Shown here: piece by piece, positions 8,191 through 37,140 of the stretch
Position numbering within the stretch: position 1 is the first letter of the stretch
Layout: each line of letters opens with the position of its first letter
Assembly (NCBI RefSeq): GCF_020034655.1
Contig: NZ_JAIQDJ010000004.1
Coordinates: 1 to 64,000 of the forward strand
DNA: 64,000 nt
Direction: 5' to 3'
Source of the DNA: Thermomonas beijingensis
Lineage (GTDB): Bacteria; Pseudomonadota; Gammaproteobacteria; Xanthomonadales; Xanthomonadaceae
Notes under the pieces: generated by a model
What the model saw: the letters and a program-made list of their open reading frames with translations, nothing else
Told to the model about the DNA's origin: nothing
Databases searched by the model: none
Made by a program: the position numbers and the translations under genes

Positions 8191-8979
8191 TCAGTCGAAC
8201 GTAATCCCGTAGCGTTCGCGCAGGGCGCGGCGTTCGCGCCGCAACAGCCAGCGTAGCAGACGCATGGTCAGGCTGTTGCGGGCGGGCGGTGGGGTGTTAC
8301 TGACAAAAACGGGCGCGTAGTCGATGTTTGCAGGTGGCGCGGGCACCCCCAGAAATGCACACACCTGTGCCACGCAGGTCGCAGGCTGGGTACGCAGTTG
8401 CTCGCTGCGCAGCAGCAACACGTGCTGTGACGGGAACTGTGCGTACAGCCGGTCCAATTGCTGCGCGTAGTCGCCGCGTGCGCGGTAGCTGTGGCGGCGG
8501 TGATGCGAGTCAGTTGCGAGTGGATCGCGGTCCAGGCGCAAGCGCCAACGCTCCAGCAACATGGCCGGCCACAGCGGCCAGTGTTCCCAGCCGCGCGCGC
8601 GCTCCATGCGGTAATGCGAGAGCGCACGTTCGGCCGGTTCGCGCAGCAGCACAATCCAGCGGAGTGCAGGGTTGTAGCGGGTGATGCGCGGCAGACATTG
8701 CGGCAGAAACAACGAGATCGGCGTGGCATCGCCATGCAGCGTAGCGGCGGTATCGGCAGTGCCGGCATCGGCAGTGAACAGGGGGGCAAACCGCGCATCA
8801 ATGGCCGCCGTGTCTGCGCCGTCATCAAAGTCTTCGGCATCGAACACATGCGCTTCCTTGTTGTATGGCAAGCGCAATTGCGGGTGCGCAGACAAGTACT
8901 GCGCCAGCGCGCTGGTGCCGGCCTTTTGCACGCCACCAATCAAAAACGCGATGCGTGGCTCAGTCGGGGTGTTGGTCAT
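8191..8979 (-). CDS. Sulfotransferase family protein
   Basis: A 262-residue PAPS-dependent sulfotransferase. The 5'-phosphosulfate loop is GVQKAGTSAL (16-25), and the 3'-phosphate segment is VLLREPAERALSHYRM near 105-120. The YNKEAHVFD stretch after the first helix is usual in glycan sulfotransferases. It would transfer sulfate to a carbohydrate hydroxyl in the cytoplasm. The ATG at 8979 overlaps the end of the ABC ATPase gene by 20 bases, so the two are translationally linked. This suggests the sulfated product is the polysaccharide handled by that transporter. The acceptor is unknown. Confidence 0.88.
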   Translation of the reverse strand: MTNTPTEPRIAFLIGGVQKAGTSALAQYLSAHPQLRLPYNKEAHVFDAEDFDDGADTAAIDARFAPLFTADAGTADTAATLHGDATPISLFLPQCLPRITRYNPALRWIVLLREPAERALSHYRMERARGWEHWPLWPAMLLERWRLRLDRDPLATDSHHRRHSYRARGDYAQQLDRLYAQFPSQHVLLLRSEQLRTQPATCVAQVCAFLGVPAPPANIDYAPVFVSNTPPPARNSLTMRLLRWLLRRERRALRERYGITFD

Positions 8980-10276
8980 TGCCGGGCAACACCTGCACCT
9001 GCACGTCGGCAGGCAACGGGAACAGGCCATTGAAGCGCTCGATTGAGTTGTCGATGACCTCGAACGACAAGTCGGATTCGTGTCGGCACAGCACGCGGCG
9101 ATGGTGCTGGTGCAGATCGGGTGCTTGCACGAGTCGTGCCCGAATGCGGTAAATCCCGTGCGCCAATTGCGCACGAAACTCCACCTGTATTCGCACGTGC
9201 GGTTGCTGCGGTGTGCGCGGCGGCAGGCGAATGCGGCGGCCACTCAGCGGTACGCCATGCTCATCCAGGATATCCAGGATACAGGCGACATCAGCCAGCC
9301 CGGGATCCACTTCCAGCGCAACGCAAACCTGGAATGGCGCATCGAAACCCAGGGCCAAATGTTGCATGCCATTGGCAAACTGCAGGGCCAATACACCACC
9401 GTCTTCGCAGCGAAATCCCTGTGCGGTGCGAATCGGAGGTGCAAGCCCTGCTGCCTGGGCCTTGGCATGCACACGGAACAAGTACTCCTCGATCACTTCC
9501 TCGGGGGCACCCAGCATCGCCATGCGGCCCTGCTCCAGCAAGATGGCGTGCTGGCAAAAGGTGCGCACCGCATTGAGGTCATGGCCGACAAACAGCAGGG
9601 TGGTGCCGCGCGCCAGAATTTCCTGGATACGGGTCATGGCCTTGGCTTGGAATGCGGCATCGCCCACCGCCAGCGCCTCGTCCACGATCAGGATGTCGGG
9701 CTCCACATGCACCTGCACCGAAAACGCCAGCCGTACCGCCATGCCCGAGCTATAGGTCTTGACCGGTTGGTCGATGTAATCGCCAATGTCGGCGAACGCG
9801 ATGATGTCGCTCAACAGGGTGTCGATGCGTGCGCTGCTCAGGCCCAGAATCGCACCATTGATGTAGATGTTTTCACGCCCGGTCAGATCGGGGTTGAAGC
9901 CCGAACCCAGTTCAAGCAGCGCCGCCACACGGCCGTGGGTGTACACCGTCCCCGAGCTCGCCGGCAAGACCCCGGCAATGATTTGCAGCAGGGTGCTTTT
10001 GCCGCTGCCATTCAAGCCGATGATGCCCAGCGCCTGCCCACGCTGCAGGCTGAAGCTGATGTCGTGCAGGGCTTCATGGACGTGCAGCCTGCGCTGCGCA
10101 GAGGCGTGCAGGCGCTGCGCGAAGCTGGGTGATGCAATCGCCAGCGCCGTGCCTGCGCGATGTAGGGCGGGGGCAATCAAGCGTTGCGCGGGGCTGGCCC
10201 AGATTCGGAACGTTTTGCAGACATCCTTGACCACGATGACCGGCTGCGAATGGGCGAGTGGAAAGTCCGCTGACAT
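8960..10276 (-). CDS. wzt: Wzt-type polysaccharide ABC transporter ATP-binding protein
   Basis: A 438-residue ATPase that would drive export of an O-antigen-like polysaccharide across the inner membrane. It shows Walker A GLNGSGKST (87-95), the GFNPDLTGREN stretch typical of Wzt/TagH ATPases, signature YSSGM (175-179) and Walker B ILIVDEALAVGD. From about 290 on, a beta-rich C-terminal domain resembles the Wzt carbohydrate-binding domain that recognises a modified glycan end. The start is placed at MSADFPL. The matching permease is not adjacent: it lies at 12717, beyond the surface-protein gene and on the other strand. The sulfotransferase gene overlaps its 3' end. Confidence 0.92.
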   Translation of the reverse strand: MSADFPLAHSQPVIVVKDVCKTFRIWASPAQRLIAPALHRAGTALAIASPSFAQRLHASAQRRLHVHEALHDISFSLQRGQALGIIGLNGSGKSTLLQIIAGVLPASSGTVYTHGRVAALLELGSGFNPDLTGRENIYINGAILGLSSARIDTLLSDIIAFADIGDYIDQPVKTYSSGMAVRLAFSVQVHVEPDILIVDEALAVGDAAFQAKAMTRIQEILARGTTLLFVGHDLNAVRTFCQHAILLEQGRMAMLGAPEEVIEEYLFRVHAKAQAAGLAPPIRTAQGFRCEDGGVLALQFANGMQHLALGFDAPFQVCVALEVDPGLADVACILDILDEHGVPLSGRRIRLPPRTPQQPHVRIQVEFRAQLAHGIYRIRARLVQAPDLHQHHRRVLCRHESDLSFEVIDNSIERFNGLFPLPADVQVQVLPGNDQHPD

Positions 10277-10347
10277 GGGGGCTGCAATCAAAATTGAACT
10301 GCCATTGTAGCCGCGCCAGGGCAAGTTCCCATGGCTGCCAAAGGCAC

Positions 10348-10378
10348 AAAAAAAACGGGTGGCCCGAAGGCCACCCGT
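10348..10378 (-). terminator. Strong intrinsic terminator of the exported surface protein gene
   Basis: A perfect 10-bp stem, ACGGGTGGCC (10355-10364) with GGCCACCCGT (10369-10378), around a CGAA loop is followed on the minus strand by eight T residues. It lies 30 bases after the stop of the 634-residue protein and 71 before the Wzt start, separating the two transcripts. Such a strong terminator suits a highly expressed monocistronic gene. Confidence 0.9.
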
Positions 10379-10407: not shown

Positions 10408-12312
10408 TTACAGACCCGGGTTGCCGTCCGGCGTGGTCTGGCCGCCGCTCGGGCCGCCATCCGGAGCCTGACCACCGTTCGGGCCGCCCGGCTCACCGGT
10501 GGAGCCACCGTTGCCGTGGAAGTCCGGGGTCCACTCTTGGTTGAAGTCGGACGGACGCTGACCTGCCTGCACGGAGAAGTTGCCTTCTTCGTAATCACGC
10601 AGGTACTGCTCGCCACGGGTGTCGCTGTCGGTGACGTTGGTCAGCACGTTCGGCAACGAGCTGTTCACCAGGCTGGAAGCGACCAGACCCGGGAACTCGG
10701 CGGTGACGACTGCGCGCCACTTGCCAGCACTCGGAGCACCCCAAGCGCCGATCGCGCCGCCGGTACCATTTTCCAGGTCGGTGGAGTTCAGCTGCACCGA
10801 GGCACCGGCCGGCACCCACACGCGCACTTGCGATGCACCGTGCATACCGTTGTTGTCGATACCTTCCAGCGAGACGTAACCGTCGGTGGCGCTGCGGTTG
10901 GTCAGGCGGATGAAGCTGCGCTGGGTGGTGTTGCTGCCCGGGTTGATGGTGAAGATTTCCATCGTGGAGCCGTTGTAACGCAGCGGCAGCACGTCGCACA
11001 CCTGGCCCGCGTGGTCGTCGTTGAACGCCGGGGTGGCGATTGCACCGGCGCGGAAGAACGTGGTGTTGACGTGGTTCGGATGGTCGTCGATCACGCGGTT
11101 GGTGTTCTGGAACGCACACACGCGCAGACGGTTGGTGAACGCACCGGTGGCCATGTTCAGGTTGGCCGCAGCTGCGGTGTAGGTGAAGCTCACCTGGTTG
11201 CCGGACACGGTACCGCCGGTGCCGGCATTGGTCAGGGTGACCAGGGTGCCGTCGGTGCAGTCGGTGCCGCCGTACATCAGGTACACGCGGTCATTGATGC
11301 CGGCGTCGTCGAAGGCGTTCCAGTCATCGCCACCGTTGCCGGTGATGGTGGTGGTGAACGTATCCGAACCCAGGAACACGAAGTTGCCGGCACCGGTGTT
11401 GTTGATGGTGACGTCACCCAGGTTGATGACCTGCGAGTCATAATCGCTCGGAGCGGTCACGCTGCCGCCGAGGTTGTTGTCATTGGCCGAGCCCAGCTTG
11501 CCGTCGAAGCTGAACAGGGTCTTCGGCAGCTGATCTTCAGTATAGTCGTCAGCCACGTCGATGTACTTGTCCACTTCCGAACGGGTCCGGTCGGCGCAAG
11601 CGGTGACGCCGCTGACGCGCTTCAGGATGGTACGGCTGGTGGTGGAGCCCTGGTAGCGGCTGTCGTTGGTGGCGTTGACCATCCAGAATTCGGCGTCAAC
11701 CTTGTCGGTACCGCCATTGGCAGCGCCCATTGCGAATTCGTTCAGGCTGGTCAGGCGGGCATTGCGCCAGCGCAACAGAATGCCGGCGCTGGGGTTCAGG
11801 GTGTTGCCTGCCGGCGGGATGATGCGGAACGATGCGGTGCGGTTGCCGTCGTAGAAGGCATCGAACGCCACGGTCCAGCCAGCGCCTGCCAGCGAGGGCT
11901 CAAGGATCATTTCAGGAGCGGTCGGGGCGATACCGGCGAACAGTGCGCCGTCAGCAGTATCCGCGCAGGTGGTGTCGGGCTGCGGGTAAGGCAGGCCGGA
12001 GGCCACGCAGTTGTTACGGTTCAACTTCACGCGAACGGTGAAGCCGGTGGACACCTGCACCGCGTTATCCGGCGGATTGATGTCGAATACCAGGTCTTCG
12101 GTCATGGTGTAGTTGTAGTTCGGGCCCAGCAGCAGCTGGTAAGCCACGTTTTCCGGCGTGGCCAGATCGGCGGCGTTGGCCGGGCTGGACTGCGGGTCAA
12201 CGTTTGGTGCGGTTTGACTCAAGGTGCCATAGGTGTAGGCCGCAGCGGCGCCGGCCAGACCCAGACCGGCCACGAGGGCAACGGCGAGGACGTTCTTCTT
12301 CATGCTAGACAT
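10408..12312 (-). CDS. Large exported protein, candidate surface-layer protein
   Basis: A 634-residue protein with a clear Sec signal peptide (MKKNVLAVALVAGLGLAG, cleavage near AAA-YTYG). The mature part is rich in Asn, Thr, Asp, Gly and Ala, poor in Lys, acidic, and largely beta-predicted. It ends in a 35-residue Gly/Pro tail (GGPNGGQAPDGGPSGG). I recognise no domain. Six or so Cys occur as scattered single residues. AGGAG ten bases before the ATG at 12312 and the strong terminator suggest high expression. It sits between the two halves of a polysaccharide ABC transporter and beside a T2SS. An S-layer or other abundant surface protein secreted by that T2SS is a reasonable inference, not shown. 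A periplasmic protein is the alternative. Confidence 0.7.
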   Translation of the reverse strand: MSSMKKNVLAVALVAGLGLAGAAAAYTYGTLSQTAPNVDPQSSPANAADLATPENVAYQLLLGPNYNYTMTEDLVFDINPPDNAVQVSTGFTVRVKLNRNNCVASGLPYPQPDTTCADTADGALFAGIAPTAPEMILEPSLAGAGWTVAFDAFYDGNRTASFRIIPPAGNTLNPSAGILLRWRNARLTSLNEFAMGAANGGTDKVDAEFWMVNATNDSRYQGSTTSRTILKRVSGVTACADRTRSEVDKYIDVADDYTEDQLPKTLFSFDGKLGSANDNNLGGSVTAPSDYDSQVINLGDVTINNTGAGNFVFLGSDTFTTTITGNGGDDWNAFDDAGINDRVYLMYGGTDCTDGTLVTLTNAGTGGTVSGNQVSFTYTAAAANLNMATGAFTNRLRVCAFQNTNRVIDDHPNHVNTTFFRAGAIATPAFNDDHAGQVCDVLPLRYNGSTMEIFTINPGSNTTQRSFIRLTNRSATDGYVSLEGIDNNGMHGASQVRVWVPAGASVQLNSTDLENGTGGAIGAWGAPSAGKWRAVVTAEFPGLVASSLVNSSLPNVLTNVTDSDTRGEQYLRDYEEGNFSVQAGQRPSDFNQEWTPDFHGNGGSTGEPGGPNGGQAPDGGPSGGQTTPDGNPGL

Positions 12313-12716: not shown

Positions 12717-13517
12717 TTGCCCAATGTGTTTGTCCACCCGTGGCGGCATGCCGCGCTGATCCGCATTCTGAGCTGGCGCGACATCAGCGGTCGCTACCGT
12801 GGCTCGCTGCTGGGGGGGCTGTGGGCCCTGCTGACACCGCTGCTGATGCTGGCGGTGTTTACCTTTGTGTTTGGCGTGGTGGCCCCCACCCGCTGGCCGG
12901 GTGCCGAAGCGCAGGGCATGGGCATGTTTGCGCTGCGACTGCTGGCCGGGATGGTGGTGCACGGGCTGTTGGCCGAATTGCTGCAACGTGCGCCCACCTT
13001 GGTTACCGGGCAGCCCAATTATGTCACCAAGGTGGTATTTCCTCTGGAAGTGTTGGGCTGGGTGGCGCTGTTGACCGCGTTGTTCCATGCGCTGATGGCG
13101 CTGCTGGTGCTGGTGGTGCTGAATGCCGTCTGGGGCACCGGTTTGTCGCCGACGGTGCTGGCGCTGCCCTTGATCGTGCTGCCCTATGCCCTGCTGCTGT
13201 TGGGGCTGTGCTGGTTGCTGGCCGCGCTGGGGGTGTATTTGCGCGACCTGACCCAATTGGTTGGGCCGCTGGTGATGGTGTGCATGTTTCTGGGGCCGGT
13301 GTTTTACCCGCGCCAAGCGATGCCGGCACTGGCGCAGCCGTGGTTGGCGCTGAACCCGATCACCATTCCGGTGGAACAGATTCGCCGCGTATTGTTCGAC
13401 GGTCAGTGGCCAGACTGGCAGACTCTGGCGCAGTATTCGTTGGTTGCCGTGGTCGCGTATGCGTTCGGCCTGTGGGCATTTACCAAATTCAAGAAAGGAT
13501 TCGCTGATGTCCTCTGA
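12717..13517 (+). CDS. wzm: Wzm-type ABC-2 polysaccharide permease
   Basis: A 266-residue membrane protein of the ABC-2 type with about six hydrophobic helices. It has the family pattern RDISGRYRGSLLGGLW at the N-terminus and LNPITIPVEQIRRVLFDG near the C-terminus. It would form the channel for the Wzt ATPase encoded at 8960-10276. The start is unusual, since no ATG is available. TTG 12717 lies eight bases after GGAG; TTG 12711 is too close and GTG 12726 too far. Its last 11 bases overlap the start of gspE, so polysaccharide export and type II secretion are probably co-transcribed and translationally coupled. Confidence 0.87.
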   Translation: MPNVFVHPWRHAALIRILSWRDISGRYRGSLLGGLWALLTPLLMLAVFTFVFGVVAPTRWPGAEAQGMGMFALRLLAGMVVHGLLAELLQRAPTLVTGQPNYVTKVVFPLEVLGWVALLTALFHALMALLVLVVLNAVWGTGLSPTVLALPLIVLPYALLLLGLCWLLAALGVYLRDLTQLVGPLVMVCMFLGPVFYPRQAMPALAQPWLALNPITIPVEQIRRVLFDGQWPDWQTLAQYSLVAVVAYAFGLWAFTKFKKGFADVL

Positions 13518-15213
13518 TGTTGCACTGCGCGCAGCCCCGCGCGACCGCTTGCTGGGCGAGTTGCTGCTGGACGCCGGTTTGCTGGGCGAGGCCGACCTGG
13601 AGCGCGGGCTGGCGTTGCAGGAAAAAATCGGCGGCCGGCTGGGCAGTGTGTTGATGCGCATTGGTGCGGTCAGCGAGGACAACTTGCTGCAAGTGCTGGG
13701 CCGGCAATTGGGCTTGCCGCTGATGGGCGCCGAGGTGCCGCTGCCAGACGAGGACATGCTGCGGCTGACCGCAGGGCAGGCCACGACCGGCATCGACTGG
13801 TTGCTGGATCAGCAGGTGCTGGTATGGCCGGGAGAGGGCAATGATCTGCTGTGCGCGGCGCGTGACCCGCTGCTGCCGACCTTGCGTGAAGCCATGCAGC
13901 ACGCCTATCCGGGACGCAAGGTGCATTGGTGCTTGTGTCGGGCGCAGGATCTGGAGCGGATGCTGGACGGGCTGGCACACAGTGCGCGTGCGGATGATTT
14001 TTTTGGCGGCGGCGATGAGCAGCAACTGCGCGCGATGGCCGAAGAAGCGCCGGTGGTGGAGCTGGTCAGCAATCTGATGGCGCAGGCAGTAGAACAACGG
14101 GCATCAGATATCCATTTGGAGCCGGAAGAGCGTACCTTCAGCGTGCGTTTCCGCATCGACGGTGTCTTGCACAACCGCCTGAGCTTGCCGCGTGACCGCT
14201 TTGACGCGGTGGCGTCGCGCTTGAAACTGATTTCCGGCATGGACATTGCCGAGCGCCGCCTGCCGCAGGACGGGCGCATGTCCACCCGCGTGGGCGGGCA
14301 GGAAATGGATATTCGTGTGTCGGCCTTGCCGGGCGTGCATGGCGAATCCATCGTGATGCGTCTGCTGCCCAAGGAACGCAAGGAGCTGGGGCTGGAACGA
14401 CTGGGCTTCGAAGCCGACCATTTGGCCTTGATGAAAGCCTGGACCGCCGAGGCCAACGGGATTGTGTTGGTCACCGGCCCCACCGGTTCGGGTAAATCCA
14501 CCACCTTGTACGCGGCGCTGGCAGCGGCCAATGACGGGCTGAAAAAAATCATCACGGTGGAAGACCCGGTGGAGTTCCAGCTGCCGGCGATCACCCAGAT
14601 TCAAGCGCACCCGGAGATTGGGCTCACGTTCGCCAATGCGCTGCGCTCGATTTTGCGGCAAGACCCCGACGTGATCATGATCGGTGAAATCCGCGATCTG
14701 GAAACCGCCGAAATTGCCGTGCAGGCCGCGCTGACCGGGCATTTGGTGTTGAGTACATTGCACACCAACGATGCCATCAGCGCGTTCACGCGCCTGGTGG
14801 ACATGGGCGTGGAGCCTTTCCTGGTGGCCACCCCCGTGCGCGCCGTGCAGGCGCAGCGCTTGGTGCGCAGGCTGTGCCCGCATTGCACGCGGCCGCATCC
14901 GGTGCCGGCCGAGATTGAAGCCGAGGCGCGGGTGTTTGCCGAGAAGGTGTTGCCCGGCGTGGCCCCGCGCTGGATGAGCGCGGTGGGGTGCAGCCAGTGC
15001 ATGAATACCGGGTATCGCGGGCGCTTGGGCATTTATGAGCTGGTGCCGGTGAGCGAGCCGATGCAGCATTTGATCGTCAGTGGCGCTTCGGTCAATGACA
15101 TGAAAAAACTGGCGCGCGAGGAAGGTTGCCGGTTCCTGCGCGACGATGGCTTGCTGAAGGCATGGCAAGGGTTGACCACGGTGGAAGAAGTGCTGCGCGT
15201 GGCGGGGAGCTGA
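13507..15213 (+). CDS. gspE: Type II secretion ATPase GspE (XpsE)
   Basis: A 568-residue cytoplasmic ATPase powering the type II secretion pseudopilus. It has an N-terminal GspE_N/MshEN-like domain (1-150), then SDIHLEPEE. Walker A is GPTGSGKST near 324-332, Walker B VIMIGEIRD near 389, and the His box STLHTNDA. A four-Cys zinc module (LCPHC and CSQC, about 457-498) marks GspE/PilB rather than PilT. AAGGA lies before the ATG. It is the first gene of the eleven-gene E-to-D operon, and overlaps the preceding permease gene by 11 bases. Confidence 0.96.
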   Translation: MSSDVALRAAPRDRLLGELLLDAGLLGEADLERGLALQEKIGGRLGSVLMRIGAVSEDNLLQVLGRQLGLPLMGAEVPLPDEDMLRLTAGQATTGIDWLLDQQVLVWPGEGNDLLCAARDPLLPTLREAMQHAYPGRKVHWCLCRAQDLERMLDGLAHSARADDFFGGGDEQQLRAMAEEAPVVELVSNLMAQAVEQRASDIHLEPEERTFSVRFRIDGVLHNRLSLPRDRFDAVASRLKLISGMDIAERRLPQDGRMSTRVGGQEMDIRVSALPGVHGESIVMRLLPKERKELGLERLGFEADHLALMKAWTAEANGIVLVTGPTGSGKSTTLYAALAAANDGLKKIITVEDPVEFQLPAITQIQAHPEIGLTFANALRSILRQDPDVIMIGEIRDLETAEIAVQAALTGHLVLSTLHTNDAISAFTRLVDMGVEPFLVATPVRAVQAQRLVRRLCPHCTRPHPVPAEIEAEARVFAEKVLPGVAPRWMSAVGCSQCMNTGYRGRLGIYELVPVSEPMQHLIVSGASVNDMKKLAREEGCRFLRDDGLLKAWQGLTTVEEVLRVAGS

Positions 15214-16416: not shown

Positions 16417-16468
16417 CGGCATCTGCAGCAACACATTCAGCGCCAACTTGAATCAACAGGACTCCTCG

Positions 16469-16939
16469 ATGCGACAGCGCAATATGCAATCCCTTCCGCA
16501 CCAGGCAGGTTTCACCCTGCTGGAAATGATCGTGGTGCTGGTCATCATCGGCCTGATCATGGGCTTGGTCGGGCCGCGCCTGTTCGGGCAGGCCGACAAG
16601 GCCAAGGTGCAGACGGCGCAAACGCAGGTGAAGATGCTGCGCGGTGCGTTGCAGACGATGCGCCTGGATATCAGCCGCTGGCCGACCGAACAAGAAGGTT
16701 TGCTGCTGCTGACCAATAAACCGGCCAATGCCGATGCCGCACGCGGTTGGGCCGGGCCGTATCTGGACGAGGCGGTACCAAGCGACCCGTGGGGTCAGCC
16801 TTATCAATATTCGCCGCAGCCCAGCGGCAACAATCCATTCACCCTGTACTCGTTCGGTGCCGACGGCAAACCCGGTGGTCAAGGGCAAGATGCTGATGTG
16901 GGCTACTTGCCGGGCCAAACAACGGCCAACCCGCAGTAA
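16469..16939 (+). CDS. gspG: Major pseudopilin GspG (XpsG)
   Basis: A 156-residue prepilin-type protein that polymerises into the T2SS pseudopilus. The prepilin peptidase site is G-FTLLEMIVVLVIIGL (cleavage after the Gly, Glu at +5). The C-terminal part shows GspG landmarks: WPTEQEGLLLL, PYLDEAVPSDPWGQPYQY and the calcium-loop region YSFGADGKPGG. The start is placed at MRQRNMQ because AGGA lies a short distance before it. The frame stays open 23 codons upstream into gspF, which is not needed. Confidence 0.96.
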   Translation: MRQRNMQSLPHQAGFTLLEMIVVLVIIGLIMGLVGPRLFGQADKAKVQTAQTQVKMLRGALQTMRLDISRWPTEQEGLLLLTNKPANADAARGWAGPYLDEAVPSDPWGQPYQYSPQPSGNNPFTLYSFGADGKPGGQGQDADVGYLPGQTTANPQ

Positions 16940-28449: not shown

Positions 28450-30537
28450 ATGCGCGAATCCATGGCACAACGTGCGCTGATCGCAACGGTCACCAGCGGG
28501 GCGGTGCTGCTGGTGCTTGCGTTGGCTTGGCGACTGCGCTTGTTTGCCGAAATCAATGCGAGCTGGTGGTGGCTGCTGGGCGTTGCAAGTGTTACCGCTA
28601 TGCTGGGGGTAACCTATGCGCAGGCAGGCCATGCGGGTTGGCGGCATCCAGCGCGATGGTTGACCTTGGCAGGGATGCTGGGCGTGGTGGCCTACGCCGG
28701 AATCGCCACGATGCTTGCCTGTTTGTTGCTGATGCTGTGTGCGGCAGCACTTGCCCCAAGGTCGCCGGGAGCAAAGCAGGCATCCGAACCGGCATCCAGG
28801 ATCGTCATCGGACTGGCGGTACTGGTGGCATTGGTCGGCTGGCTTCTGCCGTTTCCGATCCACACCAGCATGGGCTATCGCGGCATTGCCGTTGCGATCT
28901 GTGTAGTGCGATATCAATCCGTGCTGGCGCATTGCAAGGACATGTGGCAAGGCTGGCGTGGGTTGGAGCAAGAGGCCGGCAGCTGGCTGGTATTAGCCGT
29001 CGTGGTCACCTGCCTGGCCGGACTGGGGTTGTGGTTGCCGAGCGTGAGCTATGACGACAACACCACCCATCTGACCCTGCCCTACCAGTTGCTGCGGGAT
29101 GGCTATTTTCATTTGGATGTGTCCGGCCAGGTCTGGGCGTTGGCACCCTGGGGCAACAACATTCTGCATGCGATCGCGGCAATGCTCGCGGGATCTGAAG
29201 CGCGGGCGGCGGTGGATTTGCTATGGCTACTGCTGGGCGTGCAGGGAGCTTGGCAACTGGCGCGGGCCATGGGGGCATCGGTACGGGTCGCGCTAGCGGC
29301 GGCGGCGTTGTTTGCGAGTCTGCCATTGACCGGCTATTTCACCACCACCATGCAGGTGGATGGCGCATCTGCAGCGGTCCTGATGCGATTTGCCGCAATG
29401 TTGGCGGTGTCGGGTAGATCGCTCCCGCCGCTCCTGCCAACGGCGGCACTGTTGGCGCTATTGGCTGGCTTGAAGGCAAGCAATGGCGTGTATGTGTTGC
29501 CCGCATTGGGCTGGTTGGCTTGGTTGGCGGTGCAGCAACGGCAATGGCGCTGGTTGCTGTCGATGTTGGGGCTGACGGTGTTGTTGGGAGGATCCAGCTA
29601 TGTCTATGCGGCATGGGTAACCGGCAGCCCGCTGTTTCCGCTATTCAACGCAAGCTTCAAGTCGCCGTATTTTGCAACGATCAATTTCATCGACCAGCAT
29701 TGGATGGCCGGGGTGACTTGGCGATCGTTGTGGGATATGACCTTTCATAGCGATCGCTATGGCGAACACTACCCGGGTGCGTTCGGGATTGCCTTGCTGG
29801 CGCTGCTTCCAGCGCTGGTGATCGAAGTTGTGCGGCGACCGGCATCACGGGCCATCGCAGTATGGTTTGCAGCTACTGGGTTGCTATTGTTTTTGCAGAT
29901 CCAGTATCTGCGCTACGTGTTCCCGGCTACCGCGATTCTGGTGGTGATCGGAGTGTTGGGATTGGCGCGAGCATTGCCGGCAAAGCTCTTTCCTGTGGCG
30001 CTGTCGGCGTTGCTGGTGGCTAATCTTGCGCTAGTGCCGACCACGGTGTGGTACATGCACGATGATGTGTGGGCGCTATTGCTGCGCCAAGGCCCTGCAG
30101 CACGCGCCGCCATTGAAGCCAGCCGTGCTCCGGAGCGCGTGGTGTTGCGGCGGATTTTGATGGCTTCGCCACAGGCCTGCATCCTGATGACCGACAAGCG
30201 CGCTCCGTTCGCTGCAACCGCCGCTGGGCGTGCCGTAACCACCAAGAAAATCCAGGATCCACGTGTGGGTAACACTGCCGCCTGGGCCGATGAGGATGCG
30301 AGTGGTCAGCGTTGGCAGCAGACATTCGCGGTATTGGGCAGCTCGCATGTAATGACCACGCAATCCCCTTCCTTGCCACTGCGCACCGCTTTGCAGCAGC
30401 GTGGATTTGCGGTCATTGATGCCGAAGGTGCGGTGCGGGTTTGGGCTGCAGCAGACTCACAGGCGCGCATCTGTCGGGGGCAGTTGGAAACCGTGCGTGA
30501 CGAAGCACGCCGTCATTTTCAATTTGGGAGCCATTGA
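28450..30537 (+). CDS. Large polytopic membrane protein, probable GT-C glycosyltransferase
   Basis: A 695-residue protein with roughly 12-14 hydrophobic helices and a C-terminal soluble part of about 170 residues. After the helices at about 175-200 comes a periplasmic loop YDDNTTHLTLPYQLLRDG, whose acidic residues near the first periplasmic loop are typical of GT-C enzymes that use lipid-linked sugars. I do not recognise a closer family. The neighbouring GT2 gene (next, overlapping by 3 bases) could supply polyprenyl-phosphate sugars. The ATG at 28450 follows an in-frame GTG. Confidence 0.7.
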   Translation: MRESMAQRALIATVTSGAVLLVLALAWRLRLFAEINASWWWLLGVASVTAMLGVTYAQAGHAGWRHPARWLTLAGMLGVVAYAGIATMLACLLLMLCAAALAPRSPGAKQASEPASRIVIGLAVLVALVGWLLPFPIHTSMGYRGIAVAICVVRYQSVLAHCKDMWQGWRGLEQEAGSWLVLAVVVTCLAGLGLWLPSVSYDDNTTHLTLPYQLLRDGYFHLDVSGQVWALAPWGNNILHAIAAMLAGSEARAAVDLLWLLLGVQGAWQLARAMGASVRVALAAAALFASLPLTGYFTTTMQVDGASAAVLMRFAAMLAVSGRSLPPLLPTAALLALLAGLKASNGVYVLPALGWLAWLAVQQRQWRWLLSMLGLTVLLGGSSYVYAAWVTGSPLFPLFNASFKSPYFATINFIDQHWMAGVTWRSLWDMTFHSDRYGEHYPGAFGIALLALLPALVIEVVRRPASRAIAVWFAATGLLLFLQIQYLRYVFPATAILVVIGVLGLARALPAKLFPVALSALLVANLALVPTTVWYMHDDVWALLLRQGPAARAAIEASRAPERVVLRRILMASPQACILMTDKRAPFAATAAGRAVTTKKIQDPRVGNTAAWADEDASGQRWQQTFAVLGSSHVMTTQSPSLPLRTALQQRGFAVIDAEGAVRVWAAADSQARICRGQLETVRDEARRHFQFGSH

Positions 30538-31550
30538 TGAGTGCTGGTCAAGATTGTGCGCATGCAATCGCGGTGGTGATTCCTTGCTATCGCGTCGCCG
30601 ACAAGATCCTGGGTGTACTGGCCGGTATCGGGCCGGAAGTAACGCGCGTGTATGTGGTGGATGACGCTTGTCCGGAAGGCTCCGGTACCGTGGTGCAGGC
30701 ACGTTGCACAGACCCGCGGGTGGATGTGATTTTCCATGCCCACAATCTTGGTGTGGGCGGCGCGGCCATCAGTGGCTACCGTCGCGCGATTGCCCAGGGC
30801 GCCACCATCATCGTCAAACTTGACGGCGATGGGCAAATGGATCCGGCGCAGTTGCCGCGCCTTGTTTCACCGATTCTGTCGGGGGCCGCCGATTACAGCA
30901 AGGGCAACCGGTTTTACGACTTGCGCTATATCACCCGCATGCCGATGGTACGGATGCTGGGCAATGCCGCACTGTCCTTTTTGAACAAGTTCTCGACCGG
31001 CTATTGGGATATCTTCGATCCCACCAACGGATATACCGCAATTTCCGCGGAAGTCGCGGCGATGCTACCGCTTGATCGGATCAGTGAGCGCTATTTTTTC
31101 GAGTCGGACATGTTGTTTCGCCTGGGTACTTTTCGCGCAGTCGTGCGTGATGTGCCGATGGATGCGCGCTACGCCGATGAAGTGAGTAACCTGCGCATCG
31201 GCAAGGTGTGGCCGGAATTTCTAGGCAAGCATCTTCGCAATTTCGCCAAGCGACTTTTCTACAATTACTTTCTGCGTGACGTGTCTGCCGCATCGCTGGA
31301 ATTGGTGGCGGGAATTGGCCTGCTGCTGTTTGGCGTAGCGTACGGCGGTTGGCATTGGTGGTTGTCGGTGAGTACGGGGCAGGTCGCGGCCACGGGCGTG
31401 ATCATGTTGGCGGCAATGCCGGTGTTGATTGGCCTGCAACTGCTGCTGGCGTTTCTGTCACACGATATCGCCAGCGTACCGCGTATCGCGCTCAGTAACG
31501 TGCCGTCCGTCGAGATGCCGATGTCTGTCGCTGACGGATGCCACCCATGA
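30537..31550 (+). CDS. GT2 glycosyltransferase with C-terminal membrane helices
   Basis: A 337-residue enzyme of the polyprenyl-phosphate glycosyltransferase type. It has IPCYRVADKI, VVDDACPEGS, the NLGVGGAAISGYRRA segment and KLDGDGQMDP (DxD) typical of DPM1-like enzymes. TNGYTAIS and two C-terminal membrane helices follow (LELVAGIGLLLFGVAYGG; ATGVIMLAAMPVLIGLQL). It probably charges undecaprenyl phosphate with a sugar on the cytoplasmic face for use by a GT-C enzyme in the periplasm. The ATG overlaps the stop of the preceding gene, and its own stop overlaps the next start, so translation is coupled. Confidence 0.9.
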   Translation: MSAGQDCAHAIAVVIPCYRVADKILGVLAGIGPEVTRVYVVDDACPEGSGTVVQARCTDPRVDVIFHAHNLGVGGAAISGYRRAIAQGATIIVKLDGDGQMDPAQLPRLVSPILSGAADYSKGNRFYDLRYITRMPMVRMLGNAALSFLNKFSTGYWDIFDPTNGYTAISAEVAAMLPLDRISERYFFESDMLFRLGTFRAVVRDVPMDARYADEVSNLRIGKVWPEFLGKHLRNFAKRLFYNYFLRDVSAASLELVAGIGLLLFGVAYGGWHWWLSVSTGQVAATGVIMLAAMPVLIGLQLLLAFLSHDIASVPRIALSNVPSVEMPMSVADGCHP

Positions 31551-32683
31551 GCAAACCATCAAGCCACTCGGATGGGCGTGCGTTGCAACCAGCCAACGGC
31601 GAAACCAGTATCGCGGCACATCTGGCCAGGCGCAGCGACAACTTCCTGTTGTTGCGGATTTTCGCCGCGCTGGCGGTGATCTACGGCCACAGTTTCGCGT
31701 TGACCAAGCCCGGTGATTTGGGCGACATGTTTGTCCGTAGTGGCTGGCCGATGTACAGCGGTGATATGGCGGTAGCGATGTTTTTTGTCATCAGCGGCTA
31801 CATGGTCTCGGGCAGTTATTTGGTACGTGGCGACTTGTGGGAATTCACCAAAGCACGGTTGTTGCGGATCGTTCCGGCATTCGCATTGGTGCTGGTGGTG
31901 TGTGCTTACGGCATCGGCCCATTGCTGTCCAATCAACCGATGGGCGATTATTTTCGCGACCCTGCGGTGGCGGCCTATGCGTGGAAGAACTTGCGGTTCA
32001 GCTCAGATATGGCTTGGCAGTTGCCGGGTGTATTCCAGGGGCAGATGCGCGATGCCGTGAATGGCTCGATCTGGACCTTGCCAGCCGAGATGCGCATGTA
32101 TGTGCTGACCGCCGCATTGGGGGTGTTTGGGTTGCTCACGCAACGCTGGCTAGGCACCGCCTGTATGTTGCTGCTGGTGGTATTGGGGATCACCCGTCCG
32201 GAATACATCCCACTGCATCCGGACTGGTTCCGATTGGCTGGTTTTTTTGCGGTCGGGATCCTCGTTCAATTGCACAAGGACAGGTTGCACGTTCGCCATA
32301 CGGCGATGCTGATGTTGCTGTTGCTGGTGTATTTGTCGATGCGTTCGCGAGCAATGCCTTGGCTGTTTGCGTTGGCGCTGGCCTACTTCTGCTTCTGGTT
32401 TGCCTACCGCACGCCGGTGTGGCGCAAGTTGGAGCAATGGGGCGATCCATCGTATGGCATCTACTTGTGGGGTTGGCCGTTGCAGCAGGTGTTGGTGGCA
32501 AAGATGCCGGCGATCAGTGCATGGCATAATTTCGCGCTGGCGGCGGTGCTTGCGACCTGCATGGGCTATGTGTCCTGGTGGTGTCTGGAGCGTCCCGCGT
32601 TGAAGCTCAAACACTGGCATCCGCGCCGGCTTGGTACGGGGGCCTCCATTCGCACAAAACCTCCCGGAGACGGTTTGCCATGA
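31547..32683 (+). CDS. Acyltransferase family 3 membrane protein
   Basis: A 378-residue integral membrane O-acyltransferase (acyltransferase_3 / OafA-like) with about ten helices. The hallmark first segment is present: FLLLRIFAALAVIYGHSF, with the catalytic-type Arg and His, then FFVISGYMVSGSYL. RLLRIVPAFALVLVVCAYG and the late YGIYLWGWPLQQ are also typical. It would acetylate or otherwise acylate sugars of the surface glycan. The start at 31547 overlaps the stop of the GT2 gene (ATGA) and has GGATG six bases upstream. Another ATG at 31538 is possible. Confidence 0.92.
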   Translation: MSKPSSHSDGRALQPANGETSIAAHLARRSDNFLLLRIFAALAVIYGHSFALTKPGDLGDMFVRSGWPMYSGDMAVAMFFVISGYMVSGSYLVRGDLWEFTKARLLRIVPAFALVLVVCAYGIGPLLSNQPMGDYFRDPAVAAYAWKNLRFSSDMAWQLPGVFQGQMRDAVNGSIWTLPAEMRMYVLTAALGVFGLLTQRWLGTACMLLLVVLGITRPEYIPLHPDWFRLAGFFAVGILVQLHKDRLHVRHTAMLMLLLLVYLSMRSRAMPWLFALALAYFCFWFAYRTPVWRKLEQWGDPSYGIYLWGWPLQQVLVAKMPAISAWHNFALAAVLATCMGYVSWWCLERPALKLKHWHPRRLGTGASIRTKPPGDGLP

Positions 32684-33120
32684 ATGCCAAGTTCCTCCTA
32701 GTAGCCATGTTGTTGGTCGGTGTTGCCGCTTGCAGTCAAGAGGCGCCGCCAGCTCCAAGTGCTGATGCAACGGCAGCGCCATCGGCACCCACGGCTGTGG
32801 CCGCCCCTGCCAAACAAGTACAGCCATCCATCGGTGATGCCACGTTGTCCATCAACCCGGGTTCATTCCGCATCTGCGATGCCGAAAATGGCGCGATTAC
32901 CTCGACTGCGAAGTGGGATGTGTCTGCCAAGAAAATTGCTGAAGTTTCGATCTACGTGGTTGATCCCAAAGGCGAGAAGAAGCTGTGGTTGAATGGTGGT
33001 GCAAGCGGCGAATCCACCACGGGAAATTGGGTGTTCCCGGATACCAAGTTCGTCATGGTCGAGCGTGGTAGCGAGAAGCCGTTGGCCGAATTGACGGTCA
33101 AGGCTACCCCCTGCAACTGA
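32680..33120 (+). CDS. Small lipoprotein, paralogue of the one at 27901
   Basis: A 146-residue protein. The signal ends in LLVGVAAC (Cys at 19), followed by a Pro/Ala linker to about 48 and a domain of about 95 residues with a Cys near its start (SFRICDAENG) and at its end (TPCN). WDVSAKKIAEVSIYVVDPKG and GGASGESTTGNWVF parallel the protein at 27901. The two Cys may pair in the periplasm. GGAGA precedes the ATG, which overlaps the acyltransferase stop. The role is unknown; retention of two copies within one glycan cluster suggests a cluster-specific job. Confidence 0.82.
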   Translation: MNAKFLLVAMLLVGVAACSQEAPPAPSADATAAPSAPTAVAAPAKQVQPSIGDATLSINPGSFRICDAENGAITSTAKWDVSAKKIAEVSIYVVDPKGEKKLWLNGGASGESTTGNWVFPDTKFVMVERGSEKPLAELTVKATPCN

Positions 33121-33131
33121 CGAAGCAGGGC

Positions 33132-34112
33132 ATGCAGCCGGATTCTGCAAGTTGCAGCATCGCACTGGGGGCACCAGTGCTCAGTGTGCTGGTGCCCGTG
33201 TATAACGAAATCGAAGTGCTGCCCGAGTTCCACCGGCGCATGACGGCGGTGCTGCGCACGTGTGTTGATACGTATGAAGTGGTGTACGTCAACGATGGCA
33301 GTAGCGATGGGTCGCTGCAGTGGCTGCAGCAATTATGCGCGGATGATCCGGATGTGGCCTTGGTCGATTTGAGCCGCAACTTTGGCAAGGAAATCGCGAT
33401 GGCTGCCGGGCTTGACCACGTGCGTGGCGAGGCGGTGGTGGTGATCGACGCCGACTTGCAAGATCCGCCGGAATTGATTCCGCGTTTGCTGGAACAGTGG
33501 CGCGCCGGCTTTGACAACGTGTATGCACGTCGCCGTCAGCGCGATGGTGAAACGTGGCTGAAAAAGGCCAGTGCATCGTGGTTTTATCGTTTGATTGGCA
33601 AGTTGTCACGGGTGGCGATCCCGCAGGACACGGGCGATTTTCGTCTGCTCAGCCGCCGCGCAGTAGAGGCATTGCGGGCGTTGCGTGAGCAGCACCGATT
33701 CATGAAGGGTTTGTTCGCATGGATCGGTTATCCGTCGATCGCAGTCGAGTACGATCGCGATCCCCGGCTTGCCGGGCAGACCAAATTCAATTACTGGAAA
33801 TTGTGGAATTTCGCAATCGAGGGCATCACCTCGTTCACCATCGCCCCACTTAAGTTGGCGACGTACTTGGGGTTGCTCGTGGCCATGCTGGCATTTGTTG
33901 CGATGGCGGTGCTGATTGCAAAAACCCTGCTGTACGGTGATCCGGTGAAAGGCTACCCATCGTTGATGTGCGTGATCTTGTTCCTTGGCGGTATCCAGTT
34001 GGCGGCACTGGGCATGTTGGGCGAGTACATCGGCCGTATGTTCAATGAGGTCAAAGGCAGACCACTTTATTTCACTAAGCAATATGTGCCCTCGCGCCAT
34101 GCTCGTCGCTGA
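33132..34112 (+). CDS. GtrB-like GT2 glycosyltransferase
   Basis: A 326-residue enzyme close to the GtrB/ArnC group, which transfers a sugar from a nucleotide donor to undecaprenyl phosphate. It has LVPVYNE, YVNDGSSDGS, LSRNFGKEIAMAAGLDHVRG, VIDADLQDPPELI, DTGDFRLLSR and RHRFMKG-like EQHRFMKGLFAW. Two C-terminal membrane helices and GEYIGRMFNEVKGRPLYF follow. A GtrA-family flippase-like protein lies two genes downstream and a large membrane protein lies between, making a possible three-part Gtr-type modification set that decorates a finished glycan in the periplasm. Confidence 0.93.
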   Translation: MQPDSASCSIALGAPVLSVLVPVYNEIEVLPEFHRRMTAVLRTCVDTYEVVYVNDGSSDGSLQWLQQLCADDPDVALVDLSRNFGKEIAMAAGLDHVRGEAVVVIDADLQDPPELIPRLLEQWRAGFDNVYARRRQRDGETWLKKASASWFYRLIGKLSRVAIPQDTGDFRLLSRRAVEALRALREQHRFMKGLFAWIGYPSIAVEYDRDPRLAGQTKFNYWKLWNFAIEGITSFTIAPLKLATYLGLLVAMLAFVAMAVLIAKTLLYGDPVKGYPSLMCVILFLGGIQLAALGMLGEYIGRMFNEVKGRPLYFTKQYVPSRHARR

Positions 34113-35493
34113 AGCAAGGTCACCGCTGTCGTGGCGTGCAAAGTGGTTGCCATTGGTGGTCGCGGTGATTGCGGCCTTGTGGTTCAACCGCTGGATACTG
34201 GATTCGGCGCATTTTTTCTTTGCCGATGATTGGGGTTGGCTGGAGCGTGCACAATTTGGGCCATGGCGGAGCAGCATCCACCTGCTGCCCACTGCGATCT
34301 ATAACGACAGGCCGGCAGGCGAGCTGCTGATTCGGGGCTTGTACGAGGTGTTCTGGCTCCGGCATGGTGCATGGAACCAGGTTTGGTGGTGCTTGCATGC
34401 CATCAACGTGGCGTTGCTGGTTGTGCTTGCTCGGCCATGGTTGGATCCGTACCGGTTGACGCTCGCGGCAGTGTTGTCGGCATGTTGGTTCTCGACATTA
34501 ACCGCCGTGCATTGGGTCGGCGCAGTGTTCGATTTACTGGGGGCAACCTTGGTGTTGGGCACGTTACTGAGTTACCAGCAGGCGGTATTGGGCAGCACGC
34601 GCAAATGGTGGTGGTTGGGCTTATCGGTGATGCTGCATCTGGCCGCGATCCGAACCAAGGAATTCGCGTTGGGCATGGTGGTGGTGCTGGCGCTTTGGGA
34701 TGTGCTGCTGTTGCGCCACGACGACTGGCGCAAACGCTGCCTGCGGTTGGCGCCGCACGCCTTATTGGCACTGGTGTTGCTGGTTTGTTATGCGCAGCTT
34801 TATCGCCAGCAGGCAGGCAAACTGGAGGGCAGCAGCTACGGCTTGTCGTTATCTGCACAAGGTGTTCTAGAGGGGATTGGCTGGTATTTCGCACAAGCGT
34901 TCTATGCGTTTACGCCCGGCAGCAACGAAACCCATGTGGGTATCGGGTTGCTGTTTGCGGCCGCAGTATTGATGATTGCATTGTGTAGCCGGGTTGGAAT
35001 AGCTGCCTTGGGGTCCGCAGCAATTTTGATGGCAGCGGTGCTGCTACTGGGCAAGCAGCGGCATCCCCTGTACCTGTACGTACCGCATTTCTTCATTGCA
35101 CTCGCGCTGTGCGCGCTCTTCCCGCGACGCCGTATCGTGGGCATGGCGCTGACATTTGCGGTGGCGCTGCTGTTGTATTGGCCGGTGCATACCGGCTTCC
35201 TGCGCGATGCGCGCAACTTCGTGCTGATCAAGGGCAGCTACAGCAAGACCCTGTATTACGACTATGCGCGGCTGGTGCAGCACGGCACGCCGGCATCTCC
35301 GGTGACGATTGCAGTCTCCGAAGCGTATTTCGATCCGTTCTCGTGGGGTTCTGGGGATGCATTGCGCATCTTGCATGCCGACAACACCATCAAAGTACAA
35401 GTGACGGTATTGCAGCAAGGGGGAGATCCGTGTGCGGCGGCAAAAGGGTCCTGCTTTGTCGAGCAGCAGGGTCATCTGGTACGGCAGCGATGA
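34099..35493 (+). CDS. Polytopic membrane protein, candidate Gtr-type glycosyltransferase
   Basis: A 464-residue protein with about ten to eleven hydrophobic helices and a soluble C-terminal tail of about 80 residues (VTIAVSEAYFDPF...). After the first helix it has FFFADDWGWLERAQ, an acidic first periplasmic loop like those of GT-C enzymes. The family is otherwise unrecognised. Lying between GtrB-like and GtrA-like genes, it may be the sugar-specific transferase of a Gtr trio. The start is uncertain: ATG 34099 overlaps the preceding gene by 14 bases and ATG 34084 by 29; neither has a clear ribosome binding site. Confidence 0.75.
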   Translation: MLVAEARSPLSWRAKWLPLVVAVIAALWFNRWILDSAHFFFADDWGWLERAQFGPWRSSIHLLPTAIYNDRPAGELLIRGLYEVFWLRHGAWNQVWWCLHAINVALLVVLARPWLDPYRLTLAAVLSACWFSTLTAVHWVGAVFDLLGATLVLGTLLSYQQAVLGSTRKWWWLGLSVMLHLAAIRTKEFALGMVVVLALWDVLLLRHDDWRKRCLRLAPHALLALVLLVCYAQLYRQQAGKLEGSSYGLSLSAQGVLEGIGWYFAQAFYAFTPGSNETHVGIGLLFAAAVLMIALCSRVGIAALGSAAILMAAVLLLGKQRHPLYLYVPHFFIALALCALFPRRRIVGMALTFAVALLLYWPVHTGFLRDARNFVLIKGSYSKTLYYDYARLVQHGTPASPVTIAVSEAYFDPFSWGSGDALRILHADNTIKVQVTVLQQGGDPCAAAKGSCFVEQQGHLVRQR

Positions 35494-35882
35494 GTCTGCG
35501 CGTGCTGGCCAAGCAGGGGGTGAGCTATGGCGTGGTCGGCGTGCTCGCACTGGTCGTGGATTGGAGTTGCTTCGTGTTGTTGACCTGGTGCGGGATTGCC
35601 ACCGCACCGGCAAATTTGCTGGCGCGCCTGAGCGGGGCAGGGATCGCCTACATGCTGAACGGCATGTTCACGTTCCGTGACCCGCAAGGAAGCCGGTTGG
35701 GCTGGCGGCGTTTTGCGCGGTTTGCATCCTCGTGGATCGTGGTAACCGCCATCAGCACCATTGCCATGCAGGCCATTCATGCGTATGCCGGCATGCAGTG
35801 GGCATGGCTGGCCAAACCTGTCGTGGAAGTTGCGCTGGCAGGGGTGAGTTTTCTTGCGTACCGGTATTGGATCTACAAATAG
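35490..35882 (+). CDS. GtrA family membrane protein
   Basis: A 130-residue protein with four membrane helices and the GtrA-family pattern (QGVSYGVVGVLALVVDW, NLLARLSGAGIAYMLNGMFTF, FLAYRYWIYK at the end). GtrA proteins are thought to flip undecaprenyl-phosphate-sugar across the inner membrane. It is partnered with the GtrB-like enzyme at 33132. The ATG overlaps the preceding stop. The next small membrane protein starts 20 bases downstream. Confidence 0.93.
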   Translation: MSLRVLAKQGVSYGVVGVLALVVDWSCFVLLTWCGIATAPANLLARLSGAGIAYMLNGMFTFRDPQGSRLGWRRFARFASSWIVVTAISTIAMQAIHAYAGMQWAWLAKPVVEVALAGVSFLAYRYWIYK

Positions 35883-35902
35883 CAGTCTCATTGCAGGAGA
35901 CG

Positions 35903-36280
35903 ATGGCTGTCATGTTCAAATCCGAATTCCTCACCCCCGTCAATGTGCTGATGATCCTCGGCACGATCGTGTTGTTGTCGTTGGGACAGGTACTGTTCAA
36001 GAGCGCATCAACGCAACTGGTGGTGCAACAGCCGATGAGTTGGTTGTCGTTGCCGTTGCTGGGTGCGCTAGTGATCTATGCCATCGCGACTTTGCTGTGG
36101 CTGCTGGTGTTGACGAGGGTTCCACTGTCGTTCGCGTTTCCGTTTTACGGGTTGGCATTTCTATTGGTGCCTGTGCTGGCGACAGTGGTGCTGGGTGAAG
36201 CCTTGCGTTGGCAGGTGCTGGTGGGGGGGGCGGTCATCTTGTGCGGGATCGCGATCACCGCATGGGGCGTGCGTACGTGA
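35903..36280 (+). CDS. EamA/SMR-like small four-helix membrane protein
   Basis: A 125-residue protein of four membrane helices. It resembles small EamA/SMR-type proteins such as ArnE/ArnF, which flip undecaprenyl-linked sugars: LMILGTIVLLSLGQVLFK, LLGALVIYAIATLLWLLVL, then VPLSFAFPFYGLAFLLVPVL and a Gly-rich last helix. A perfect AGGAGA precedes the ATG, the best ribosome binding site in this cluster. With GtrA just upstream, two flippase-like proteins sit side by side, perhaps for two sugar carriers or as a heteromer. Confidence 0.85.
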   Translation: MAVMFKSEFLTPVNVLMILGTIVLLSLGQVLFKSASTQLVVQQPMSWLSLPLLGALVIYAIATLLWLLVLTRVPLSFAFPFYGLAFLLVPVLATVVLGEALRWQVLVGGAVILCGIAITAWGVRT

Positions 36281-37140
36281 TGGTATGCCCTGCTTGCGGC
36301 AGCACGCTGGCAGTTGGGTCAAGGCATTGGCACCTGCGTTGTGCGTCTTGCCATTACGAGGGCAGTACGCTGACGCCGCATATCCTTGAGCAAGTTGCGG
36401 GTGGCGATCTGGACGAAGCTGCGCGCGAGCAGGGACTTACCCATTTGCGGCAGGCCAACTTCGAACGCTTGCTGGCGTGGTTATTGCTGCAGATGCCGGC
36501 AACCGAATCCACCCCGCGGCTGTTGGACGTGGGATGCGCACATGGCTGGTTCATCGAATGCGCGGCGTCGCGATTTGATGTCACTGGCATCGAGCCTGAC
36601 CCTGGCGTTGCTGCGGCCACCCGCGCACGTGGATTGACGGTGCGCAGTGGGTTTTTCCCGGATGCATTGGCGCCGAGTGAGTGCTTTGATGTCATCGTGT
36701 TCAACGATGTGTTGGAGCACATTCCCAACGTCAATGCCACGCTTGTGGCTTGTTGGCAACATCTTGCGCCGGGTGGCTGTGTGATCGTCAACGCACCATC
36801 GAGCCGTGGGTTTTTGTATCGCTTGTCGGTGCTGTTGGCACGAGTTGGGTTGAGTGGCGCATTTGACCGCATGTGGCAGCGGGGCTTCCCATCGCCGCAT
36901 GTGCACTATTTTGCAACCACCAATTTGACGCTGCTGGCGCACAAGGCGGGATTCGAGTTGGAGGCACGCAGCCGACTGCCAGCGGTGACCGTGCGTGGAC
37001 TGTATGCGCGGATTCGCTACGCACGCGATGTGCCGGCCGTCAAGGCGCTGCTGCTGACAGTGGCTATCACACTGCTGGTGCCACTCCTCGCGGTGTTGCC
37101 ACCCGATATCGAAGTGTGGTGTCTACGCCGCCCGCAATGA
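36280..37140 (+). CDS. SAM-dependent methyltransferase with zinc ribbon
   Basis: A 286-residue class I methyltransferase. The N-terminus carries a small zinc ribbon (CPAC...CASC, residues about 3-24). The SAM site is [13 protein letters not shown], followed by [20 protein letters not shown] and [13 protein letters not shown], as in methyltransferases acting on surface-glycan sugars. A hydrophobic C-terminal stretch ([14 protein letters not shown]) could hold it at the membrane. ATG 36280 overlaps the previous stop (TGATG). An earlier ATG at 36262 is less likely, since the Cys pair would no longer be terminal. It may cap or methylate the glycan, an end signal that Wzt domains often read. Confidence 0.85.

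Follow-up and report, generated by a model that had tools for sequence, protein, structure and literature searches.

An O-antigen locus holding a secretion system and an exported-protein gene

What is built by a locus in which the gene of an exported protein separates the two halves of an O-polysaccharide exporter, and in which a complete type II secretion system (T2SS) follows? Such a locus occupies positions 8191-37140 of the 64,000-nucleotide stretch of Thermomonas beijingensis contig NZ_JAIQDJ010000004.1 that we analysed (hereafter the window; G000:C4:1-64000, in the 2.79-Mb genome G000). We concluded that it is probably a surface-layer (S-layer) locus of the Xanthomonadaceae (Lysobacteraceae in NCBI, the family of Lysobacter and Xanthomonas), built into an ATP-binding cassette (ABC) O-antigen locus and combining a dedicated T2SS, an S-layer protein (gene slp) and an O-polysaccharide anchor, in the manner of Aeromonas. 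Directly, this reading rests on gene content, recurrence of the arrangement, a separate T2SS lineage, co-occurrence and codon bias; its likeness to Aeromonas, and to the NpdA, Slr4 and P49 systems discussed below, is drawn from published locus descriptions, accessible in part.

The slp gene (10408-12312, minus strand) encodes an exported, acidic, putative S-layer protein of 634 aa and lies, as a preliminary description of this DNA had it, between the exporter genes wzt (8960-10276, minus strand) and wzm (12717-13517, plus strand). The former encodes the ABC ATPase (ABC_tran, E 4.3e-20) with a Wzt_C-like C-terminal part (2.2e-6, below cut-off), and the latter the ABC-2 permease (ABC2_membrane, E 1.4e-25). 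The permease gene indeed runs into the T2SS operon, overlapping xpsE (13507-15213; GspE ATPase, T2SSE, E 2.8e-134) by 11 bp; xpsF, G, H, I, J, K, L, M and N (15223-21710; platform, pseudopilins, GspL, GspM and a GspC-like protein) and the secretin gene xpsD (21707-23905; Secretin, E 1.2e-41) follow, all on the plus strand. Pfam confirmed T2SSE, F, G, K, M_b and the secretin, as well as N_methyl in xpsG, H, I and J; T2SSC in xpsN stayed under the cut-off, and xpsL, having no Pfam match, was assigned by position only. This cluster had been called a complete xps-type T2SS. The gene set is full, but 'xps-type' fits its gene order only, because the other T2SS of the genome (G000:C1) is of a different lineage.

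One chromosomal slot, three layouts

The locus sits in a slot flanked upstream by 2OG, fah, maiA, pilU, an OmpA-like lipoprotein gene, ydcH and cbs and downstream by etfA, etfB, scoA and scoB, with variable content in between. We observed the present locus in the slot of the window and of G081, G225 and G270. Six genomes of the same genus (G051, G107, G131, G237, G249 and G260) have an ordinary O-antigen slot with adjacent wzm and wzt, in which no slp or T2SS cluster was found within a 20-kb view; the etfA side lay outside this view in G131 and G237, and three further members of the genus, G167, G183 and G280, gave no slp or xpsK match. The ordinary layout occurs in other genera too. A lone XpsE-like match (41%) lies between cbs and wzm in the otherwise ordinary O-antigen slot of G260 (L116, ~8.0 kb).

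The preliminary description proposed comparing synteny in related genomes; in that comparison the arrangement recurred in many genera, beyond chance, and in three layouts. In layout A, seen in the window and several genera, st1-wzt-slp is divergent from wzm-xpsE...D-stGT, where st1 and stGT are genes with sulfotransferase motifs. In layout B, xpsG...D is divergent from wzm-xpsE-xpsF, after which come slp-wzt-st1-stGT, with variations. Layout C, also with variations, has xpsE...D and then an slp-like gene, with acyltransferase-like, metB-like (by eye), wzm and wzt genes close by. Trimmed to the signal, type C proteins measure 435-486 aa; a direct search with the A/B profile barely detected them. 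In a profile-profile comparison they aligned with A/B over 430 columns (98.6%, E 1.4e-15), which, coming from a single pairwise hhalign run on sequences of biased composition, is good but not final evidence of one superfamily.

Co-occurrence of slp and its T2SS in the family

We examined 296 genomes from 54 genera of the family. The slp sequence profile used in genome searches, A1, matched in 28 genomes (12 genera), and BLAST with the window xpsK in 45 (17 genera); the latter was used because PF03934, a small domain tried as a T2SS marker, proved unspecific and was rejected, matching 287 of the 296 genomes and also controls such as Bacillus subtilis and Lactococcus lactis. Twenty-seven of the 28 slp genomes are among the 45 with xpsK, where 4.3 would be expected (Fisher's exact test, 3e-25, not corrected for shared descent). 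Within the genus of the window, 7 of 16 genomes have both slp and xpsK and 9 have neither.

The 28 genomes comprise 25 with an A/B slp, two with a type C protein (G112 and G220) and G110, in which only C-terminal modules within other proteins matched. The 45 comprise 24 with an A/B slp, G110, 13 with type C, three contig-end cases (G042, G180 and G288) and four with the other T2SS lineage (G025, G033, G121 and G142). We found a protein of the slp superfamily in 37 of the 41 genomes that carry the slot T2SS lineage, linked to the T2SS or the exporter in 34. Of the 25 genomes with A/B slp, 22 have the gene beside wzm, wzt or the xps genes, and a protein of the same superfamily lies 3' of xpsD in 13 further genomes (type C, sought only beside the T2SS and not throughout the 296 genomes).

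In a sample of the order (259 genomes), A1 matched four, three in the family and G334 of another family, where a T2SS is followed by the gene of a 477-aa exported protein with glycosyltransferase-like genes nearby (L142:10308-11738); this protein matches both the slp and the type C profiles (96.6% and 96.9%), again in single pairwise hhalign runs that give good but not final evidence. Class-wide A1 matches in 12 of 228 non-own genomes (E up to 1e-3) were rejected as slp relatives: by our reading they fall in the signal peptides of proteins resembling porins, FadL or BamA, and no xps cluster was found near them in stretches of 5 to 19 kb. Among viral contigs, 30 stretches matched a pattern and none was confirmed, and tblastn searches of plasmids with slp, a type C protein and the G334 protein gave no match.

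The slot T2SS as a separate lineage

The other T2SS of the genome lies at ~206-217 kb of G000:C1, with E, F and G first, D last and, between G and D, open reading frames (ORFs) that by eye are pseudopilins and K to N; a third secretin of the genome is PilQ-like. The XpsE of this other T2SS (L119) is 43% identical to the slot XpsE. In a tree of 38 XpsE sequences, 33 from slot T2SSs were split by a long branch from five others, which we labelled 'general' and on which we rooted the tree, the split carrying no support value. The window XpsE did not group with T2SSs found outside the O-antigen slot. Read from these sequences, the T2SS at the slot is a second lineage, distinct from the other T2SS of the cell. 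Within the slot group, G000, G081, G225 and G270 stood together, G150 and G212 fell in the B group, and G199 was placed beside G109 and G026; this scattering of members of one genus suggests that the locus has been exchanged between genera.

Among the proteins compared, Slp has changed fastest (mean identity 0.33, against 0.73 for xpsE, 0.63 for xpsF, 0.54 for wzm and 0.66 for wzt). Mantel tests link its distances to those of xpsE, xpsF, wzm and wzt (r 0.69-0.79) and, less closely, to those of st1 (r 0.44), with 0/999 permutations in each case.

Predicted expression and properties of Slp

We calculated the codon adaptation index (CAI) with a codon table derived from the ribosomal region of the same genome and sampled 275 script-called genes of at least 150 aa from 20 stretches. 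With a CAI of 0.782, slp was exceeded by only two of the 275, an AtpD-like and a GroEL-like gene (names given by eye); genes of the T2SS and the glycan block ranged from 0.39 to 0.60. The slp-like gene also had the top CAI of its stretch in 23 of 28 other loci, values that are approximate for distant loci because the table came from a single genome. The codon bias of slp is like that of the most abundant proteins, and predicts very high expression, as a cell-coating protein needs.

The slp gene has a Shine-Dalgarno-like AGGAGTT, and its product an N-terminus that by eye resembles a signal peptide and is kept in 23 homologues. The mature protein has an isoelectric point (pI) of 4.3 and a mass of 64 kDa. 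Cys399 is invariant and Cys352 nearly invariant across the 23 homologues, and the two perhaps form one disulfide. Slp matched no Pfam or NCBIfam family and is single-copy, with one A1 match in its own genome. A plus-strand ORF of 642 aa opposite slp was rejected as a gene, since homologues and codon bias support the minus-strand frame. The protein gene had been described as well terminated: a plausible intrinsic terminator (10 pairs, a loop of 4 and a T run) lies 3' of it at 10355-10378 (minus strand) and from its sequence looks real, although the scan overall was no richer than shuffles (5 sites against a shuffle mean of 5.4). The same scan revealed no promoter-like site.

Weighing the S-layer reading

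If the locus works as we propose, Slp would carry a Sec-type signal, fold in the periplasm, be pushed across the outer membrane by its own T2SS (from XpsE to XpsD) and assemble on the cell surface, anchored there by the O-polysaccharide that would be made by the glycan block and exported by Wzm/Wzt. We infer the export of Slp by the slot T2SS, the lattice, the polysaccharide anchoring and any sulfation from the genes. That the region builds, exports and attaches a surface protein array, as originally put forward, is supported by linkage, co-occurrence, codon bias and the Aeromonas locus plan.

Several observations weigh against it. Slp contains six cysteines, an unusual number for an S-layer protein; the pI is above 8 in 4 of 28 slp-like ORFs (starts uncertain). 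A profile search against the solved structures of the PDB gave no significant match (best E 0.11), and AlphaFold models, with a mean predicted local distance difference test (pLDDT) score of 29 for Slp and 42 for its C-terminal module, were discarded. In the remaining three of the 25 A/B genomes, all of one genus (g5), slp lies on separate contigs away from the locus. G018 keeps an intact slp with the T2SS largely deleted and no xpsK match (L085:12200-15500, where a match to xpsE residues 28-121 adjoins one to xpsM residues 93-190 and xpsD is retained). In G109 the slp gene is broken across two frames, and in G187 it stands at a contig edge (among type C copies, that of G184 is split over two overlapping frames and that of G291 is a fragment), and in G270 xpsI, J, K and D and also pilU are in pieces, perhaps through sequencing error. 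Finally, the distances of the flank gene fah correlate with those of slp too (r 0.69; 6 genomes, 20/999 permutations), so that distance tracking cannot tell co-selection from shared descent.

Slp could instead be a major vesicle or matrix protein and not a lattice, which the second T2SS would load onto outer-membrane vesicles with surface glycans assisting. The precedent is P49 of Shewanella vesiculosa HM13: a non-canonical T2SS precedes its gene, the cluster also includes genes for Wza, WecA and Wzx, and vesicles lose P49 when gspD2 is lost (PMC6971210). Both systems have a second T2SS, one major exported protein and glycan genes, but P49 is vesicle cargo and its T2SS is incomplete, GspCLM, GspHIJ and GspN being absent from the cluster in the accessible part of that account, whereas the slot T2SS has the full number of genes and shares its setting, an ABC O-antigen locus, with the Aeromonas systems. 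We regard a purely P49-like role as unlikely; as NpdA, in the accessible literature, links S-layers with vesicle tubes, the two readings may overlap. It is improbable that the dedicated T2SS exports Slp as an abundant but non-crystalline adhesin or fibre subunit: its C-terminal module does recur in large proteins of two other genera that have ice-binding or immunoglobulin (Ig)-like domains, but its codon bias is near that of the GroEL-like gene, it is single-copy, and the precedents from Aeromonas, NpdA and Slr4 all form S-layers. A chance neighbourhood, with the slot T2SS as a general exoenzyme system and Slp as an unrelated secreted protein, is very hard to credit, for although the other T2SS likewise begins with E, F and G and ends with D, it stands elsewhere (L119), the slot T2SSs form their own group, and slp and the slot T2SS are present or absent together within the genus.

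On the S-layer reading, S-layers would be predicted in 12 or more genera of the Lysobacter/Xanthomonas family. The locus names candidates for the S-layer gene, the private T2SS and the anchor, and provides pairs with and without them inside one genus; substrate choice by a dedicated T2SS and O-antigen anchoring would become testable outside Aeromonas. An orphan protein family is also flagged.

The glycan block and possible sulfation

The preliminary description had placed about eleven glycan genes within 19 bases of the T2SS. The gap between xpsD and stGT is 19 bp, and eleven genes, all on the plus strand, then run to 37140; two of them, however, encode small lipoproteins. The first, stGT (23925-27845; 1306 aa), has a sulfotransferase-like N-terminal motif not called by Pfam, repeats, and glycosyltransferase domains of families GT2 and GT4; its middle part (window 24945-25219) contains an 84-bp tandem repeat of 3.3 copies (99%). 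Next come lipo1 (27895-28395), gtc1 (28447-30537), gt2a (30534-31550; GT2 by Pfam), an acyltransferase 3 gene (31538-32683; PF01757, E 1.7e-21), lipo2 (32680-33120), gt2b (33132-34112; GT2 by Pfam) and gtc2 (34105-35493). A gtrA-like gene (35490-35882; PF04138, E 2.2e-17), one for an EamA-like small transporter (35885-36280; just under the Pfam cut-off) and one for an S-adenosylmethionine (SAM) methyltransferase (36277-37140; PF13489, E 7.9e-24) complete the block. GT-C-like proteins had also been described here; gtc1 and gtc2 were assigned as such by eye (on hydrophobic stretches for the multi-pass gtc1), and neither membrane protein had a Pfam match. The paralogues lipo1 and lipo2, assigned as small lipoproteins by eye, are 34% identical over 108 aligned columns and gave no Pfam family above cut-off; a lipo2-like gene also occurs near etfA in G270 and G196. 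The GC minimum of the window is at 31001-36000 (0.575-0.582 in 2-kb bins, against 0.587-0.658 in the others), and the five lowest codon adaptation values among 40 window genes tested all belong to this block. Its low GC and low codon adaptation fit horizontal exchange.

A separate sulfotransferase gene, st1 (8191-8979, minus strand; Sulfotransfer_1, E 1.5e-11), overlaps wzt and was absent from the preliminary description. The first sulfotransferase motif of st1 was present in all 17 loci with a match (19 examined). The second was found in 15 of these, and of the remaining pair one is a partial match. The genome has an adenylyl sulfate (APS) kinase gene, which may also serve sulfate assimilation. 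Sulfation of the O-polysaccharide is possible from these genes, and not more, because in A. salmonicida the gene after wzt has a sulfotransferase domain and the O-antigen is given as acetylated rhamnose, glucose and mannosamine (PMC4483657).

The C-terminal module of Slp

A module at about residues 440-560 of Slp (10633-10995, minus strand) recurs in two other genera, where six large proteins each end in four tandem copies of it (loci L197, L198, L199, L200 and L201; genomes G056, G004, G049 and G084). These proteins are of 832, 845, 1846, 937, 1632 and 873 aa (the last with a masked start); two have ice-binding (PF11999) and one Ig-like domains. Every genome among the 296 in which A1 matched the module carries slp or its T2SS as well. 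We tentatively raise the possibility that in this family the genes for the O-polysaccharide, its exporter, the T2SS and the S-layer protein make up a single exchangeable surface cassette, and that the Slp module is a shared docking module; tandem modules would then hang accessory proteins on the same layer, like the S-layer homology (SLH) repeats of Gram-positive bacteria. An equally likely alternative is a beta domain widespread among exported proteins. Similar repeats are known elsewhere.

Comparison with known systems

Our literature searches, for which subscription papers were mostly out of reach, returned no paper on such a locus in Xanthomonadaceae, the nearest being the listing of NpdA for 'Lysobacter species'. 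As far as these searches reach, four things are new: the host family, an orphan protein family, the Slp module and what looks like exchange of the cassette as a whole.

The NpdA family is described from Delftia and Paracidovorax and listed also for Rudaea, Rhodanobacter, Dokdonella and 'Lysobacter species' (PMC10765051, PMC3110197). NpdA has a mature mass of 52 kDa in P. citrulli, where its gene lies beside a cluster of 12 gsp genes; the S-layer was demonstrated by deletion and cryo-electron microscopy, and the Delftia protein sheets require lipopolysaccharide (LPS) for assembly (PMC10765051, PMC3110197). Both npdA and slp adjoin a gsp gene cluster, and Slp may belong to the NpdA family; the O-antigen ABC exporter present beside slp is unmentioned beside npdA in the accessible text of these papers. 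In the marine Pseudoalteromonas tunicata, the gene of the S-layer protein Slr4 directly follows a T2SS operon for which a dedicated role has been suggested (PMC7821379); the components named include T2SG, E, F, K and D and, in the accessible part, no O-antigen ABC locus is described. NpdA, Slr4 and P49 show that the pairing of a T2SS and a single major surface protein recurs.

In the wb(salmo)/A-layer locus of A. salmonicida, the order is wzm, the T2SS, vapA, wzt (438 aa), a sulfotransferase-domain gene (216 aa) and the large glycosyltransferase WbbB (1122 aa), so that wzm and wzt enclose the S-layer genes, which begin with the T2SS and end with vapA (PMC4483657). The O11 locus of A. hydrophila AH-1 follows a similar plan, and deletion of vapA there removes the layer and leaves the O-antigen (PMC4413209); the Aeromonas A-layer is tethered by LPS (PMC4483657, PMC4413209). 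Differences from the window are that slp is divergent from wzm and the T2SS and has its own terminator, that Slp has 634 aa against 469 for the VapA of AH-1, and that the slot from cbs to etfA is not the chromosomal slot of Aeromonas. In both, an ABC-2 O-antigen locus is interrupted by a T2SS (Sps in A. salmonicida) and an S-layer gene (a putative one in the window), the T2SS starts with E, F, G, H, I, J, K and L, and Wzt has 438 aa in A. salmonicida and in the window. Like an Aeromonas-type locus, that of the window has a T2SS cluster and an exported-protein gene between or beside wzm and wzt, a slot T2SS distinct from a second T2SS in the same genome, and one exported-protein gene with very high predicted expression.

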